Position numbers and translations under genes: made by a program
The notes under the pieces: model-generated
What the model saw: the letters and a program-made list of their open reading frames with translations, nothing else
Database searches by the model: none
Told to the model about the DNA's origin: nothing
Shown here: positions 35,169 to 42,544 of the stretch, in pieces
Numbering within the stretch: position 1 is the first letter of the stretch
Layout: every line of letters begins with the position of its first letter
Origin: Gammaproteobacteria bacterium
GTDB taxonomy: Bacteria > Pseudomonadota > Gammaproteobacteria > SZUA-229
Assembly: GCA_029881795.1 (NCBI GenBank)
Contig: JAOULX010000004.1
Span: 1 to 64,000 of the forward strand
Direction: 5' to 3'
Length of the DNA: 64,000 nucleotides

Positions 35169-36920
35169 ATGACGCAAACAACTATTAATCTCATTATTTT
35201 TAAAATCGGCCCGGTACCCTGCTGCGTCGATTCTAACTCTGTCCAGGTGGTAATCGAACCACCGGACCATATCACAGCGATACCCGGCAGTAATGCACTG
35301 CGCCCTGGTTTATTCAGCCATATGAAAAAAACAGTGGCTGTTTATGATGTTCGTTCAAAATTCAGCTTATCGACCGGACAACGCGGTAAGATTCTGATTG
35401 CCAATATGCATCAACAACAATTTGGCTTCTGGGTCGACAACATCCAGGAAATTATTTCTTCCGATAAGGCTCGCTGGCAAGCACTGCCGGCAGAATGTCC
35501 AAAAGATATTTTTGACGGCATCCTGCTTTATAAAGAGCAACTAATCCTCAAAACCGACTTTGACAAACTGGCGCATGCCAACGTCAGCACGCAGACGCAA
35601 TTATTTATCAAACAATTCATAGCACCTGAACCTGAGCAGAATTCTGCCACTGAGATCGATTCTAATACCATCCCCACCAACAAAAAGACAGCAACATTGG
35701 GCAGCCAGCACGAACAAATCGCTCAAACGACAAGCCATACCTCAGACAAATCACCGCAAGCTGTTAGACCTCAATCTGTTGTGGCACCTAACCATCAGCA
35801 TACTGCTGTAGGCACTGCAGTCACTCCGCATGCGGATAAAAAACCTGCACCAACACCTGCAACCACACCTTCATTTACAGCCAGCGCTGCTAGCACCAGC
35901 ACCAGCACCAGCACCAGCACCAGCACCAGCACTAGCACTAGCACTAGCACTAGCACTAGCACTAGCAGGGCTGAGTCAGTTATAAAACCTGCTTCAGCAG
36001 CGGAAAGTCACAGCCCGGCTCAAACAATTACTCAGCCGCGCACAGCAACAAACACGGCGGCAAAGAAAAATATCACCCCAACCACGGCCGTCAATCCAGC
36101 AGCTCATTTATACTCAAATACAAGTGACATAAAAACCAGTATCAAGCCAGACCCGTTACAGAAACCAGCCACTGCAAAAACAGTTCCAGCTGAATCCGTG
36201 ACCGGCGCAGAAAAATCAGAACATACAGTCCGCCAGGCGAAACAAGCTTCCAATAAATTTTACGCCAGCATGTTTCTTTTAGCCGTAATAACTGCAGCTA
36301 TTACCGTGCCATTTATTGATTTCAAAAAATCCAGCTCTGGTTCTCAACCGTCACCAGTGGCACCGAGCAGACCATCGCAACTAGCACTCGATATAGTAAA
36401 TAATGAATCAGATTTAAATGATCACGTTACACCTGATAGTGTCGATAACACAGCAACTATGACACTAACAACAGAAACACCACCTGAACCAAAACAAAGT
36501 GCCAGCGATACACAAGAGATAGTATTTACTGATTCAGGCCTTCAAATCAGCAAACAAAAAGATACAATCGTTATCACTTTAGACGACAGCGAAGCTCGAC
36601 TTAACTCAGTCAGCACAAACACAAAACCCAATGCACTCACCCCCCAAGCGCTAAGCACAGCCAAAAATCCTGATAGCAACAATAAAACACAACACGCAGC
36701 CAGTAAAAACAGAATTTCAAATAACAAAACTTCCGCAACAAAACCTGAAAAAATTACTCATGTGGTCGTTAAAGGTGACACGCTATGGCATATAGCAAAG
36801 CGATATATACATGACCCGTTCAAATATAAACAAATCGCAAAGCTCAGCAGAATAAAAAACCCTGACCTTATTTACCCGGGCAATCGCATTATCATCATCA
36901 TTCACAAAAACAACAAATAA
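35169..36920 (+). CDS. CheW-like domain / transmembrane / LysM fusion protein
   Basis: The 583-residue protein has an N-terminal CheW-like domain (about 5-140: NLIIFKIG, VAVYDVRSKF, GFWVDNIQEII, LILKTDFDKL). A 220-residue Ser/Thr/Pro/Ala-rich linker follows, with a pure Ser-Thr repeat at residues 242-265. One membrane helix comes next (about 367-385, FYASMFLLAVITAAITVPF), then a second low-complexity region, and a C-terminal LysM domain (about 532-580, VVVKGDTLWHIAKRY and NPDLIYPGNRIII). Topology inferred: CheW inside, LysM in the periplasm on peptidoglycan. No kinase or receptor gene of a chemosensory array is adjacent. The architecture is not one I recognise; the function is unknown. Confidence 0.85.
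   Translation: MTQTTINLIIFKIGPVPCCVDSNSVQVVIEPPDHITAIPGSNALRPGLFSHMKKTVAVYDVRSKFSLSTGQRGKILIANMHQQQFGFWVDNIQEIISSDKARWQALPAECPKDIFDGILLYKEQLILKTDFDKLAHANVSTQTQLFIKQFIAPEPEQNSATEIDSNTIPTNKKTATLGSQHEQIAQTTSHTSDKSPQAVRPQSVVAPNHQHTAVGTAVTPHADKKPAPTPATTPSFTASAASTSTSTSTSTSTSTSTSTSTSTSTSRAESVIKPASAAESHSPAQTITQPRTATNTAAKKNITPTTAVNPAAHLYSNTSDIKTSIKPDPLQKPATAKTVPAESVTGAEKSEHTVRQAKQASNKFYASMFLLAVITAAITVPFIDFKKSSSGSQPSPVAPSRPSQLALDIVNNESDLNDHVTPDSVDNTATMTLTTETPPEPKQSASDTQEIVFTDSGLQISKQKDTIVITLDDSEARLNSVSTNTKPNALTPQALSTAKNPDSNNKTQHAASKNRISNNKTSATKPEKITHVVVKGDTLWHIAKRYIHDPFKYKQIAKLSRIKNPDLIYPGNRIIIIIHKNNK
35892..35963 (+). repeat. Hexanucleotide repeat, six AGCACC then six AGCACT
   Basis: Twelve in-frame 6-bp units encode (Ser-Thr)12 in the linker of the CheW-LysM protein. 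The first six are AGCACC and the last six AGCACT. Gain or loss of units keeps the frame, so it would change linker length only. Confidence 0.95.
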
Positions 36921-37053: not shown

Positions 37054-38601
37054 TCAGAGTTGCTTCATAACAAGCAGGGTTAGGTCATCAAAGATTTTTT
37101 GCTTGCCAATATGCTGTTTGACATCTTTGATAATCAGATCTTTAATGTCTTCCGGGAGCTTAAGGTAATTAGCCTGCAGTATTTTACACAATCGCTCTGT
37201 TCCATATAATTCATGTGCTGTATTTGCAGCCTCGGTGATACCATCCGTATACAAAGCAACCAGATCACCCTGATACAGTGATATTTTTTTACTATGGAAA
37301 AAATCATTGGCATCACTGACAAGACCAATTGGAAAACCCAGTTCATCAGTATCAATTTCTTCAACTTCACCGTTATTTCTTATAATGATCACAGATTCAT
37401 GCTGACCTGCCAGAGTCATTTCAGCAGACGGCCTGTCCGCTGCGGCGGCGGACAAACCAAAATTTTTATAATCAAGCAGCATCAGGGTCAGATTCTTTTC
37501 AGAATTCATTCTGTCTACATTGTTGTAAATCGTTATATTGGCAACTTTCAGCATTTCGATCAGATCATAACTCGATGCGCTTAGCTGAGACCGGATGATA
37601 CTTTGAATCATCAACATTACCATACCGCTTTCCAGGCCATGCCCAGTGACGTCACCAATACCAACTAACGCACCACTATCATGTTTAAGCACCTCATAAT
37701 AATCACCGCCTATTTCATCGGCAGGCTGCATAAAAGCAGCGATTTCAAGCCCGTCAATAGTGGAAATTTCTTGCTGAGTTGGCAGAATAACTTTCTGTAG
37801 CTGCCTACTGACGTCAAGCTCCGCTCCCATCCGCATATTTTCTTCACGCGTATGAAAAAGTTCTTTAGTACGTTTTTCTACCCGTTGCTCAAGCGTTTGA
37901 TTTACTTCTTCAAGCTGCTGCATAAGAACAGTTAATTTAATACCCTGGTTTCTTATCTGACGAATCACAAAATATACAATCATCAGGCTGAATGCCAGAC
38001 CAAATAAACCCAGCACCACCATCTGACTTCTTGTCTCTTCATAGGAAGTTCGCGCATCCAGCAATTCATGCCGTGATAGTTTAGACTGCATTTTACGCAA
38101 TTTATTTAATCGCTCGAGCACGCCGGCATTAACTTCTCTGGCTTTACTGATGAGTTCAATCTGATTATTACCTGTCTCATCGATCGCATTTTCGACAATC
38201 TGAGCAAGCAGAAGCTGCGCCTGTTTGAGTATTTTCCTCTGATCAACAAGTTCATCGATCTGTGTTTTAGTCAGATCCAGTGACATTAGTTTTTCACGGG
38301 CGTTGATGAAATCCGTTGCTTTTTTAGAAAGCCCCATATTCATTTCATCAATTTCAAAGGCATCTTCAGAATTGAGGATGTCGTAAACAATTAACATGCG
38401 ATCCCTTATAGAATCACTGAGCTCTGTCATACTTTCGGATTTTGCATTGCTTTGATTAACCAGATAATCCAGTTTTTTATAATTTTCCTCCTGATTATTA
38501 AGCACTACCTTGACCGCAACACCAAGTATCGAAAAGGTTAGTACAAATCCGACGATCACCAATGTGATTTGTCGACCAACTATATGATCCTTTTTATTCA
38601 A
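37054..38601 (-). CDS. Membrane sensor PP2C/SpoIIE-type serine phosphatase
   Basis: The 515-residue protein has a membrane helix (about 10-33), a helical periplasmic domain (about 35-190, like a four-helix receptor domain), a second membrane helix (about 193-213) and a coiled coil (about 225-270). The SpoIIE-type PP2C domain (about 285-515) has metal-binding motifs DEIGGDYYEV, GIGDVTGHGLESG and LYTDGITEA. It probably removes phosphate from the STAS protein encoded 5 bp upstream, restoring partner switching in answer to an outside signal. It resembles SiaA/RsbU-like phosphatases. Confidence 0.88.
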   Translation of the reverse strand: MNKKDHIVGRQITLVIVGFVLTFSILGVAVKVVLNNQEENYKKLDYLVNQSNAKSESMTELSDSIRDRMLIVYDILNSEDAFEIDEMNMGLSKKATDFINAREKLMSLDLTKTQIDELVDQRKILKQAQLLLAQIVENAIDETGNNQIELISKAREVNAGVLERLNKLRKMQSKLSRHELLDARTSYEETRSQMVVLGLFGLAFSLMIVYFVIRQIRNQGIKLTVLMQQLEEVNQTLEQRVEKRTKELFHTREENMRMGAELDVSRQLQKVILPTQQEISTIDGLEIAAFMQPADEIGGDYYEVLKHDSGALVGIGDVTGHGLESGMVMLMIQSIIRSQLSASSYDLIEMLKVANITIYNNVDRMNSEKNLTLMLLDYKNFGLSAAAADRPSAEMTLAGQHESVIIIRNNGEVEEIDTDELGFPIGLVSDANDFFHSKKISLYQGDLVALYTDGITEAANTAHELYGTERLCKILQANYLKLPEDIKDLIIKDVKQHIGKQKIFDDLTLLVMKQL

Positions 38602-38606
38602 TTTTT

Positions 38607-38954
38607 TTATTCCAGAATCAATTCCATTGCAGGCATTAGTCTTTTTAAATTATTCAGTGATTTTGTCTGCCAAGGAACACTCTGCGAACCGACAACAACC
38701 AGTTTAAACTCGGCTTTGTTACGTGCATTGATAACAAACTTAGAAAACATGGCAATACCTGAACTGTTTAAAAACTCCAGTTCTTTAAGCGACAGTGTCA
38801 ACGCATCTGACTCAGTGACAGCTTGCGTAAGGCAATCGGCAATAGGCGCATACTCAGACAAACCACCTAGTCGCAAAGTACCTGTAAATCTAACTACGCT
38901 ATCAGCTGGTTGATATTCTACCTGGTAATTATCATCTTCAATTTTAATCATCAT
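38607..38954 (-). CDS. STAS-domain anti-sigma-factor-antagonist-like protein
   Basis: The 115-residue protein carries a STAS fold with the motif LEFLNSSGIAMFSKFV, where a Ser of NSSG corresponds to the phosphorylated Ser of SpoIIAA/RsbV (usually DSSG). It is likely the switching partner of the HATPase encoded 10 bp upstream and of the PP2C phosphatase encoded next. It resembles cyanobacterial slr1659-type regulators. Confidence 0.82.
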   Translation of the reverse strand: MMIKIEDDNYQVEYQPADSVVRFTGTLRLGGLSEYAPIADCLTQAVTESDALTLSLKELEFLNSSGIAMFSKFVINARNKAEFKLVVVGSQSVPWQTKSLNNLKRLMPAMELILE

Positions 38955-38964
38955 ATCTCTCGTA

Positions 38965-39534
38965 TTAGATCTTTATCACGACTTGAGTGGTCACTTTACA
39001 GGCATCATTAATATCATCGAACTGCCAGCCCAATTCTGCCTGATAATCATTAATCATTGTTAAATACCCCAGACCCGACGCCGAGTCAGACTCCGCACTG
39101 GCTTCGAGCCGTTTCATAAACAATTCATCTGGGTCACTGCTTTCAAGCTCCTTAATAAAGGCCTTAAACTCAGTTTTTTGGCCTGCACTGATGCCATTAA
39201 TTTCAGTAAAAATTAACTGGTCAGGTAATAAGGTTAGATCAATGCTATTGGGTATATTGCCGTTTTCATCACAATATTTCATTGCATTTTCTAGTAACTC
39301 ATTGGCTATATAGGTTGCCGCATCACGAACTATCGCTTGTTTTTTAGCCGAATCAGGCTGCTCATTATCTTTTGGAAAAAAGGTGGTCAGATAGTCTCCC
39401 AAAAAATCTGCCGAGAGACCATTGTTTCTCCATCTCTGTTTAATAGGTACTGAACTTGGCTTAAAGCTAAGACACATATGTTCACAATAGTTATTTGGAT
39501 CAATTTCATTAAAACAACCGTATCGCTCACTCAT
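38965..39534 (-). CDS. HATPase-like switch kinase (slr1658/SiaB-like)
   Basis: The 189-residue protein has a GHKL ATPase N-box ANELLENAMKYCDENG (about 92-107) and a glycine motif SASGLGYLTMINDY near 155. No phospho-acceptor domain or receiver is present. It is likely a serine kinase/anti-sigma-like regulator acting on the STAS protein. The start overlaps the GGDEF stop (ATGA, 39531-39534), so the two are translated together. Assignment to the SiaB-like group is inferred from fold and context. Confidence 0.7.
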   Translation of the reverse strand: MSERYGCFNEIDPNNYCEHMCLSFKPSSVPIKQRWRNNGLSADFLGDYLTTFFPKDNEQPDSAKKQAIVRDAATYIANELLENAMKYCDENGNIPNSIDLTLLPDQLIFTEINGISAGQKTEFKAFIKELESSDPDELFMKRLEASAESDSASGLGYLTMINDYQAELGWQFDDINDACKVTTQVVIKI

Positions 39535-40406
39535 TCAGCAGGCCCTCTGCAATTACTTTTATTTTCGGTTTCATTATTAAATCCGACAACTTGATTTCTG
39601 CCTTTTTCTTTGGCTTTATAAAGCATATTATCTGCCTGTTGTAAAAGACAGGATTCTTCTGCACCAGTAATAACGGTGCAGCTGGCAACGCCGATACTGA
39701 CACTGACAGTGTCACTGATTTTTGATTTATTATGCGGAATATCGAGCTGCTTAACAGCCAGACGCAAGTCTGATGCAATTTTCATTGCCCCATCGTAATC
39801 GGTATCAGGCAGAACAATTGCAAACTCTTCACCACCATAACGGGCAAATAAATCGGTACTTCTTACCGATATTTTTTTCCCCTGCTCAGCAATACGTTTA
39901 ATACAGTCGTCACCTATCTGGTGGCCGTATTCATCATTAAAGAGTTTGAAATAATCGATATCTATCATGATAATTGAGAATTTCGAATGGTGTCGTAAAG
40001 CCCGGCTCCATTCACTGGCAAGGTAATGATCAAAATGCCGCCTGTTTGATACTTGGGTTAAGCCATCCGTTAAGGCTTCTTCTTCTGCTACCCCCAAACG
40101 TTCGAGCCATTCATATTGCAAATCATCACCATGAGAAGTAATGGTTTCGACCAGCACCTCAAGATCATCTTTTTGCTGGGTTAATGCAGAGATTAGATTT
40201 TGAAGGCGGTTTTCAGCTTTCCTGCGCTCGTTGGCTTCACGCTCCAGCGAATCGTTAACCAACAATAGCTGCTCCTCTATTGAGTCGCCATGCTCGATCG
40301 CTGTCATCAACGCAATCTCAAGATCTGAAGCATCCTGACTCAGGCGTTTGATTGCTTTTGCCTGATCTTCAATAATTTGCAGTAAATCAGATTTTTCTTT
40401 TATCAT
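39531..40406 (-). CDS. Diguanylate cyclase (GGDEF), coiled-coil N-terminus
   Basis: The 291-residue protein has an N-terminal coiled coil (about 1-95) and a GGDEF domain (about 115-280). The active site is RYGGEEF and the inhibitory site RSTD lies five residues before it, so it should make c-di-GMP with product feedback. There is no sensory or receiver domain, which suggests control by protein contact, most likely with the STAS or HATPase partner. It is the first gene of the four-gene operon. Confidence 0.92.
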   Translation of the reverse strand: MIKEKSDLLQIIEDQAKAIKRLSQDASDLEIALMTAIEHGDSIEEQLLLVNDSLEREANERRKAENRLQNLISALTQQKDDLEVLVETITSHGDDLQYEWLERLGVAEEEALTDGLTQVSNRRHFDHYLASEWSRALRHHSKFSIIMIDIDYFKLFNDEYGHQIGDDCIKRIAEQGKKISVRSTDLFARYGGEEFAIVLPDTDYDGAMKIASDLRLAVKQLDIPHNKSKISDTVSVSIGVASCTVITGAEESCLLQQADNMLYKAKEKGRNQVVGFNNETENKSNCRGPAE

Positions 40407-40681: not shown

Positions 40682-41227
40682 TCAGTGTTTTACAGGTTTC
40701 TTCTGAAGTTTTCTTTGCAATGTGCGCCGGTGCATATTCATCGCTCTTGCAGCGGCAGAAATATTACCGTCATGCTCGTGCAATACTTTTTGCAGGTGTT
40801 CCCATTCAAGACGTTTTATTGACATCGGGTTAGCTGCGGCTTCGACATTAACATCGCCTGGTATTTTATCAAAGGCATCGATAATATCTTCTACCTCAGC
40901 CGGCTTTGTTAGGTACTGACTCGCACCCAGCTTTATCGCCTCAACAGCAGTTGCAATACTCGCATAACCGGTTAAAACAACAATGCTGATATCAGGCTGT
41001 AAAGTAACCAGTATTTCTACCATACTCAACCCCGAATCCTGACCAATACGGAGATCAACCACGGCACAGCCAAAAGCCTGTTGTTCGGCTACCTTTCGAC
41101 CCTCAGCTACTGACTGCACTGCACACACATTATAGCCATGTCTTTGTAATGCCCTGGATAGAACCTCACAAAATGCCAGATCATCATCAACTAATAATAA
41201 TTCTTTATTAACGACGCCAGTATTCAT
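40682..41227 (-). CDS. regA: RegA/PrrA/ActR-type redox response regulator
   Basis: The 181-residue protein has a receiver domain (LLVDDDLAF, phospho-acceptor Asp in AVVDLRIG, VLTGYAS, Lys in YLTKPAE) and a C-terminal Fis-type helix-turn-helix (NISAAARAMNMHRRTLQRKLQKK). This is the length and order of RegA/PrrA, which controls respiration, carbon and nitrogen genes in response to redox state. It lies 3 bp after regB. Confidence 0.92.
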   Translation of the reverse strand: MNTGVVNKELLLVDDDLAFCEVLSRALQRHGYNVCAVQSVAEGRKVAEQQAFGCAVVDLRIGQDSGLSMVEILVTLQPDISIVVLTGYASIATAVEAIKLGASQYLTKPAEVEDIIDAFDKIPGDVNVEAAANPMSIKRLEWEHLQKVLHEHDGNISAAARAMNMHRRTLQRKLQKKPVKH

Positions 41228-41230
41228 AGA

Positions 41231-42544
41231 CTAAATTACTTGCTCTAACGGTATACTAATCAAGGTTCGGCTGCCTTTAGTTTGCCGGTTACTTTGCGTG
41301 ATTTGCCCTCCCTGCCTTCTTATTGCAGCATAAGCTAAATATAAACCTAATCCCAGACCCAGCTCTTTTTCACTGTAAGGTTGCTTGCCAATCGTCTGCA
41401 ACGCTTTCTCAGACAAGCCAGGGCCATGATCCAGTATTTCAACTGAAAGACTGTACTGATCAGAACTCAGTATCCATTTTACAAAATCAGGGGAAACATC
41501 GATCGCATTTTCAATGATGTTAATCAGTGCAAGACTCATCGTCCGGCTCGTAACAATCCTGCTAAGCGGATCGACAGCATCCCATGCGTAAAGCACATTT
41601 GCTTCCGGTCTGATCAAAGCAATTTCATCTTTCAAACGCGCAAAATAATCCACCGCGTTTTCAATATTGCTGCCATACAAATCAGAAGACATACCAACAG
41701 ATGCCGACAAATCTGACAATGATGTCTTGCACCGACCAATCTGTGATTTTAAATTTTCAAGATCCTTATGCACCTGCCGGTTTTCATCATCGATTTCTGC
41801 CTCAAGCTCACTCACTAGTAAGGACATTGTCCCCAATGGAGTACCCAGTTCATGCGCTGTGCTCGCAGCCAGTGTTCCTAATATTACCAGCTGCTCATCT
41901 CTTATAGACTGTTCGCGGGCATGTGCCAGCTGCTTGTTTTGTAAACGCAGTGTATTGCTCATACCATAAACATAATAAGTAATCAGACCTGCATTCAGAA
42001 TAAAGGCCAGCCACATCCCCATTAAGTGCAGATCATATTCAGAGCTCAGTAACTGACCATGCATACCAGGATTCACTGCCTGCGCTGCAGCATGATTCAT
42101 TTCATGCCCCATATTGTGCATCATCGGTAAGGCCTGATAATTAAACATCAGCAAGCTATAACAGATCACTGCCAGCACAGCCAACCACCACGCATAACGA
42201 ACCGGTAATATTGTTACCGTTATGGTTAAAGGAAACAGAAACAACATCACAAACGGGTTTGTTGCTCCGCCGGTAAAATACAACAACAAAGCAAGAGCCA
42301 GCAGGTCAAAAGCCAGATGAATGAATATTTCATTTTCAGTCACACGCTTAGGCTGCCGAAGGCGCATCCAGACAAAGGCATTAAACAAAATAATCTGAAA
42401 AATTATAAGACTGATCGGCAACACAGGAAGGTCAATTTTTAGCCACAACAAAACGACCAGAAGCGCACTAAACTGCCCAGCAATAGCGAGATTTCTCAAT
42501 ACAAACAAACGTTTTAAATGGAAATAGTTAGCTGTTTCTTTCAT
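41231..42544 (-). CDS. regB: RegB/PrrB-type redox sensor histidine kinase
   Basis: The 437-residue protein has six membrane segments in residues about 15-195. The second extracytoplasmic turn carries GGATNPF, the quinone-binding heptapeptide of RegB. The H-box is ASTAHELGTPLGT, and QIGRCKTSL holds the redox-active Cys typical of RegB. The HATPase has NIIENAIDVSP and ELGLGLGLYLAYAAI. A Met/His-rich stretch (MMHNMGHEMNH) lies before the last membrane helix. It should sense ubiquinone redox state and phosphorylate RegA. Confidence 0.93.
   Translation of the reverse strand: MKETANYFHLKRLFVLRNLAIAGQFSALLVVLLWLKIDLPVLPISLIIFQIILFNAFVWMRLRQPKRVTENEIFIHLAFDLLALALLLYFTGGATNPFVMLFLFPLTITVTILPVRYAWWLAVLAVICYSLLMFNYQALPMMHNMGHEMNHAAAQAVNPGMHGQLLSSEYDLHLMGMWLAFILNAGLITYYVYGMSNTLRLQNKQLAHAREQSIRDEQLVILGTLAASTAHELGTPLGTMSLLVSELEAEIDDENRQVHKDLENLKSQIGRCKTSLSDLSASVGMSSDLYGSNIENAVDYFARLKDEIALIRPEANVLYAWDAVDPLSRIVTSRTMSLALINIIENAIDVSPDFVKWILSSDQYSLSVEILDHGPGLSEKALQTIGKQPYSEKELGLGLGLYLAYAAIRRQGGQITQSNRQTKGSRTLISIPLEQVI

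Follow-up and report, generated by a model that had tools for sequence, protein, structure and literature searches.

Partner switches are best known for the control of sigma factors, and in few cases they control a diguanylate cyclase (DGC). One such case is the HsbR-HsbA-HsbD system of Pseudomonas aeruginosa, in which HsbR combines phosphatase, kinase and receiver domains in a single protein and HsbA also acts on FlgM. The Hsb reports describe a STAS protein that controls a DGC (PMC6482189, PMC5085249), and HsbA promotes HsbD activity (PMC7647112). In the structure of the SiaC-SiaD complex, four SiaC molecules occupy two conserved stalk motifs of the SiaD dimer (PMC8457831). SiaC contacts the stalk through its phosphosite helix alpha-2 and through alpha-3, phosphorylation of T68 blocks binding, and unphosphorylated SiaC activates SiaD (PMC8457831). 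In Sinorhizobium meliloti, the BgrRUWV system for mixed-linkage glucan (Baena 2019) is described as a PP2C phosphatase, a kinase and a STAS protein that control a DGC (PMC7647112, PMC8457831). In Moorella, the switch kinase MtT is reported to dock on the DGC MtG, with the STAS protein competing it off (PMC7647112). After iron limitation, slr1658 mutants of Synechocystis PCC 6803 recover poorly, and they overexpress Pgr5 (Zer 2018, cited in PMC7555055). No output enzyme was assigned to Slr1658/Slr1659 in the literature found, and a full-text search for the slr1658/slr1659 family names, whose coverage excluded subscription literature, returned no paper.

The window analyzed here is the whole stretch of 64,000 nucleotides from a gammaproteobacterium (contig JAOULX010000004.1, positions 1 to 64,000). 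It contains a locus with the following features:

37054 to 38601, minus strand: membrane PP2C/SpoIIE phosphatase of 515 amino acids with a TTG start (Pfam SpoIIE, 122 bits)
38607 to 38954, minus strand: slr1659-family STAS switch protein of 115 amino acids (NCBIfam slr1659_superfam, 143.2 bits; cut-off, 100)
38637 to 38675, minus strand: STAS helix 94-106, proposed stalk-binding helix (conservation, structural model and analogy with SiaC alpha-3 [PMC8457831])
38757 to 38768, minus strand: NSSG, STAS residues 63-66, presumed phosphorylation site (invariant in 51 homologues)
38965 to 39534, minus strand: slr1658-family GHKL switch kinase of 189 amino acids (NCBIfam slr1658_cyano, 231.6 bits; cut-off, 200)
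39531 to 40406, minus strand: DGC of 291 amino acids with a coiled-coil stalk (about residues 1-108) and a GGDEF domain (residues 111-272; Pfam GGDEF, 172 bits)
39822 to 39863, minus strand: GGEEF active site with the upstream RxxD inhibitory site, RSTDLFARYGGEEF, DGC residues 182-195 (sequence pattern)
40107 to 40166, minus strand: stalk motif copy 2, DLEVLVETITSHGDDLQYEW, DGC residues 81-100 (profile search, E 8e-8)
40266 to 40325, minus strand: stalk motif copy 1, DLEIALMTAIEHGDSIEEQL, DGC residues 28-47 (alignment A1 and profile, E 1.4e-16 in its own genome)

The genes for the DGC, the HATPase kinase, the STAS protein and the membrane PP2C form, in this order, one tight minus-strand operon. 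The DGC gene (40406-39531) overlaps the kinase gene (39534-38965) by 4 bp; 10 bp lie between the kinase and STAS (38954-38607) genes and 5 bp between the STAS and PP2C (38601-37054) genes. The order, overlap and gaps given in the first-pass annotation were all exact on re-checking. No sigma factor gene is adjacent to the four genes, and promoter matches showed no excess over shuffled sequences. A congener (loci L004 and L033, JAOUKT010000001) carries the identical four genes in the identical order, with a kinase 82% identical, and another pseudomonadote (G437, locus L074) has them in the same order with one extra gene inserted. Because the order recurs in both genomes, the arrangement is not a product of chance. 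The first-pass annotation had made its reading depend on the four genes occurring together elsewhere, and the check, once made, did not overturn it. The extra gene in G437 (L074:6351-7229, minus strand), between the STAS and PP2C genes, encodes an apparent periplasmic (phosphate-type) substrate-binding protein, possibly a ligand sensor for the phosphatase.

Two further observations concern the surroundings of the operon. A RegB/RegA-like (PrrB/PrrA) redox two-component pair (40682-42544, minus strand) lies directly upstream and likewise precedes the operon in the congener (L033); both proteins score under the equivalog cut-offs, and the pair may or may not be functionally linked to the operon. 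On the plus strand, positions 35169-36920 encode a protein of 583 amino acids with an N-terminal CheW domain, a C-terminal LysM domain, an apparent transmembrane stretch and a long linker that is rich in Ser/Thr and includes an STSTST run. As judged from its sequence, it is apparently an unusual link between a chemotaxis adaptor and a peptidoglycan-binding module.

Analysis of the individual proteins revealed the components of an RsbU/RsbW/RsbV-type switch, whose characteristic residues (the phosphorylatable serine of STAS, the GHKL residues of the kinase and the metal-site motifs of PP2C) are intact. The kinase also exceeds the cut-off of the NCBIfam slr1658 superfamily (206.5 bits; cut-off, 100), which upholds its earlier description as slr1658-like; in Pfam, the kinase scores under the gathering cut-off of DUF6272 and the STAS protein under that of STAS. 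Across 55 homologues, the kinase N-box (N78, E79, E82 and N83) and S153/G156 are invariant, as are W35 and W170, which are candidate surface residues. The genome's single slr1659 match is the STAS protein of the operon. In its family-specific helix 94-106, W95 and N102 are invariant and Q96, K98, S99, L100 and L103 nearly so. The PP2C has intact catalytic motifs (GGDY/GDVTGHG/TDGITE/DDLT), and its hydropathy indicates two membrane-spanning segments (near residues 7-36 and 191-216) with roughly 155 extracytoplasmic amino acids between them; it is presumed to be the sensor. Judged by its GGEEF sequence, the DGC has the GG(D/E)EF active site expected of an active enzyme, and a sensor domain is absent from it, in agreement with the first-pass annotation, which had described a sensorless cyclase with intact active and inhibitory sites. 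Domains, motifs and neighboring genes likewise agree with its description of a complete switch joined to a c-di-GMP synthase and free of a sigma factor.

Identity of the operon with SiaABCD was rejected. All four proteins fail the Sia equivalog or subfamily cut-offs (SiaA, 60.5 bits against a cut-off of 700; SiaB, 15 against 85; SiaD, 148.8 against 290; no match of the SiaC model to the STAS protein), and the gene order differs too. These scores, together with those above the slr1658 and slr1659 cut-offs, leave intact the earlier proposal that the operon parallels SiaABCD in a different order. Searching the Sia and slr1658/slr1659 families had been named as a check on that proposal, and the outcome did not refute it.

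Structures were predicted as single chains, on the sequence rows minus two from plasmid records, with pLDDT values of 94 for the STAS protein and 91 for the kinase. Sequence searches of the PDB with the STAS protein, the kinase and the stalk motif found no relatives. Comparison of the STAS model with the PDB placed SiaC at ranks 1 to 4 (Z 12.6-13.1 over 111-114 residues), ahead of the RsbV/SpoIIAA types (Z 9-11). The first-pass annotation had called the STAS protein a classical NSSG type; this holds for the sequence, but the predicted structure is closer to SiaC. NSSG is located at the start of helix 65-77 of the model. The kinase fold is nearest SiaB and RsbW/SpoIIAB, the scores for SiaB (Z 13.6 over 155 residues) and an RsbW-type kinase (Z 13.1 over 126 residues) being tied within 1.

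Alignment of DGCs encoded beside slr1658/slr1659 revealed a helical stalk motif, DLE-x2-L-x-T-x2-EHGD-x-IE-x2-L. It usually occurs as two copies in the N-terminal halves of these DGCs, and most two-copy proteins have a spacing of 53-55 residues; in the operon DGC, copy 2 follows 53 residues after copy 1. Two DGCs have exactly seven residues fewer, one heptad, between copy 2 and the GGDEF domain, which fits a coiled-coil stalk. No Pfam model covers the motif, in the DGC or in any other carrier. Many cyanobacteria have a DGC gene next to slr1658/slr1659, and the order of these genes takes several forms. Other carriers at slr1658/slr1659 loci are class III nucleotide cyclases, PAS proteins, histidine kinases, SpoIIE phosphatases (PP2Cs) and short HAMP-like proteins. 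For the earlier suggestion that the DGC probably receives its input from the switch, the repeated EHGD motif, shared with other output enzymes, offers a candidate physical site.

To follow the motif across genomes, 26 motif units (A1) were made into a profile, which was searched against the genome sets already used for slr1658, with matching denominators. Matches to slr1658 above the cut-off are common in cyanobacteria (31/146 genomes) and rare in Gammaproteobacteria (8/369) and Pseudomonadota at large (7/398). By Fisher tests, which ignore kinship and whose p-values are overstated because the genomes are related, the motif was present in 26/31 slr1658-positive versus 0/115 negative cyanobacteria (p 4e-24), 7/8 versus 0/361 Gammaproteobacteria (p 5e-14) and 2/7 versus 1/391 Pseudomonadota at large (p 8e-4). 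The profile was built partly from loci beside slr1658, so that the contributing positive genomes are circular evidence, a limit that does not apply to the lack of the motif in negative genomes. By our count, eight positive cyanobacterial genomes that are not near-duplicates of contributors gave nothing to the profile; a calculation that took this number as nine yielded p 1e-10. Five slr1658-positive cyanobacteria have no motif, and Rhizobiaceae loci possess PP2C-kinase-STAS without it. The motif co-occurs near-exclusively with slr1658/slr1659.

This distribution bears on the possibility that the EHGD stalk is a mere dimerization or linker helix and that the DGC shares a transcript with the switch but is not its target. 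Such a role would agree with the N-terminal part of the motif, which resembles ordinary coiled coil, and with the PDB matches of the motif, which are coiled coils with E 0.03 or worse. A generic linker, however, would not be limited to slr1658-positive genomes; the lone match outside them, a weak one in the pseudomonadote G536 (E 5e-4), belongs to an apparent Mfd transcription-repair helicase and was taken as chance. Furthermore, the window's own genome has 48 GGDEF matches, and the only motif found in it is that of the operon DGC; across loci the outputs vary while the motif stays. We therefore regard a linker-only role as very improbable. A partner switch with the DGC as its output, parallel to SiaABCD and not a member of it, is supported.

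The next point is which switch protein meets the stalk. At three cyanobacterial loci (L183, L184 and L185), an orphan slr1659 STAS gene lies directly beside a motif-bearing histidine kinase gene without an slr1658 kinase gene; these genomes do carry slr1658 copies, far from the orphan slr1659 genes. This arrangement favors STAS as the docking partner. The predicted STAS fold, nearest to SiaC, a known stalk binder, would by analogy support the same partner. Both observations speak against docking of the kinase on the stalk motif with STAS competing it off, as in Moorella MtT/MtG. Kinase docking has that precedent (PMC7647112), the overlap of the kinase and DGC genes here and invariant candidate surface residues such as W35 and W170 in its favor; all told, we consider it quite unlikely.

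We thus judge it likely that the operon encodes a partner switch in which STAS binds the two stalk motifs and, when unphosphorylated, activates the DGC. In this model, the membrane PP2C would sense something outside the cytoplasm and dephosphorylate the slr1659 STAS protein at the NSSG serine. Unphosphorylated STAS would then use its NSSG helix and its WQxKSLxNL helix to dock on the dimeric coiled-coil stalk of the DGC, at both EHGD motifs. Docking would set the stalk register and switch on the GGDEF domain, and c-di-GMP would rise. The slr1658 kinase would reverse the switch by phosphorylating STAS, which would release it from the stalk. We infer STAS as the direct binder, activation over inhibition and the phosphorylation cycle; the identity of the DGC as the output is the strongest of the inferences, direct STAS docking is weaker and polarity is weakest. 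The same docking could have the opposite effect, so that bound STAS (or phospho-STAS) inhibits the DGC, and sequence cannot tell the polarity. Inhibition nevertheless seems unlikely, as unphosphorylated SiaC, to which the STAS fold is nearest, activates SiaD (PMC8457831) and HsbA is a positive factor for HsbD (PMC7647112).

A tree of concatenated kinase and STAS sequences, of unknown root, joins the window and its congener to G437 as sister (support 96/88). The three are placed inside a well-supported group of mostly cyanobacterial loci, to which the Rhizobiaceae-type loci do not belong. The operon may plausibly have been acquired horizontally from a source of cyanobacterial type.

Several related loci show other arrangements. 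At L041:12169-13326 (minus strand), just upstream of PP2C-kinase-STAS, a STAS-like domain is fused to a SAM methyltransferase; it has NNAG where NSSG is expected and is for this reason probably not phosphorylatable. STAS-like matches of similar size occur at the corresponding place in L040, L075-L077, L146 and L182. Mastigocoleus has a natural fusion of an slr1658-type kinase with an slr1659-type STAS protein (L005:9603-10562 and L006:9562-10521, both plus strand), which adjoins unfused copies of both. On a Rhizobium plasmid (L145:1910-10956, plus strand), genes for a methyltransferase, a PP2C and slr1658- and slr1659-type proteins lie shortly before bcsA (cellulose synthase), a position that suggests control of an exopolysaccharide by this switch.

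The variety of carriers leads us to lean, with some reserve, toward a broader reading, in which slr1659 STAS proteins recognize one portable helical tag, the EHGD motif, which evolution would have placed on DGCs, class III nucleotide cyclases, histidine kinases and phosphatases. One switch type would then drive c-di-GMP, cyclic mononucleotide and two-component outputs, several of them at once in some genomes, and it may be plugged into many outputs. If this is true, the tag would also account for the output of Slr1658 in cyanobacteria and provide predictions for the many cyanobacteria with slr1658/slr1659, for which a phenotype and no output appear in the literature found. Switch targets would be predictable from sequence alone, and a short docking tag on unrelated enzymes would make the partner switch a general plug-in controller.

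Compared with known systems, the operon is most like SiaABCD of P. aeruginosa. Both combine a PP2C, a GHKL kinase, a STAS-fold switch protein and a sensorless DGC in one operon; SiaC and SiaB are the nearest or joint-nearest PDB folds of the STAS and kinase models; and the DGC stalk bears two repeated motifs, candidate docking sites, as the SiaD stalk bears two that bind SiaC (PMC8457831). The operon differs in its order (DGC-kinase-STAS-PP2C versus PP2C-kinase-SiaC-DGC), in the serine of NSSG in place of T68 of SiaC, and in the motif, which is unrelated in sequence and has copies 53 residues apart instead of 32 (S50/Q54 and S82/Q86 in SiaD). The motif profile gave no SiaD match in the PDB, and the two stalk motifs are consequently not detectably homologous; the close parallel with SiaC-SiaD concerns architecture and does not extend to the sequence of the motif.

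BgrRUWV, compared by description only, is alike in the control of a DGC by PP2C, kinase and STAS. In the S. meliloti plasmids, a search for the bgr locus found HATPase_c_2 matches only in frames of 477-1129 amino acids, all too long for a small switch kinase; bcsA led to a glycosyltransferase gene, but its neighborhood was not bgr-like. The slr1658/slr1659 locus of S. meliloti (L182) encodes an EAL-domain protein, two methyltransferases, a PP2C, a kinase and a STAS protein, with no stand-alone DGC. HsbR-HsbA-HsbD, likewise set beside the operon by description, shares a STAS-controlled DGC. RsbU/RsbW/RsbV and SpoIIAB/SpoIIAA are alike in folds and presumed chemistry, and the operon differs from them in having no sigma factor and a cyclase output. 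Slr1658/Slr1659 of Synechocystis belong to the same named kinase and STAS families as the operon proteins. The operon is of the slr1658/slr1659 lineage, which is apparently distinct from the other STAS-controlled DGC systems. STAS-controlled DGCs (SiaABCD, HsbRAD and BgrRUWV) and the kinase-controlled DGC of Moorella are already known; what appears to be new here is the shared candidate docking motif and the range of outputs that it marks.
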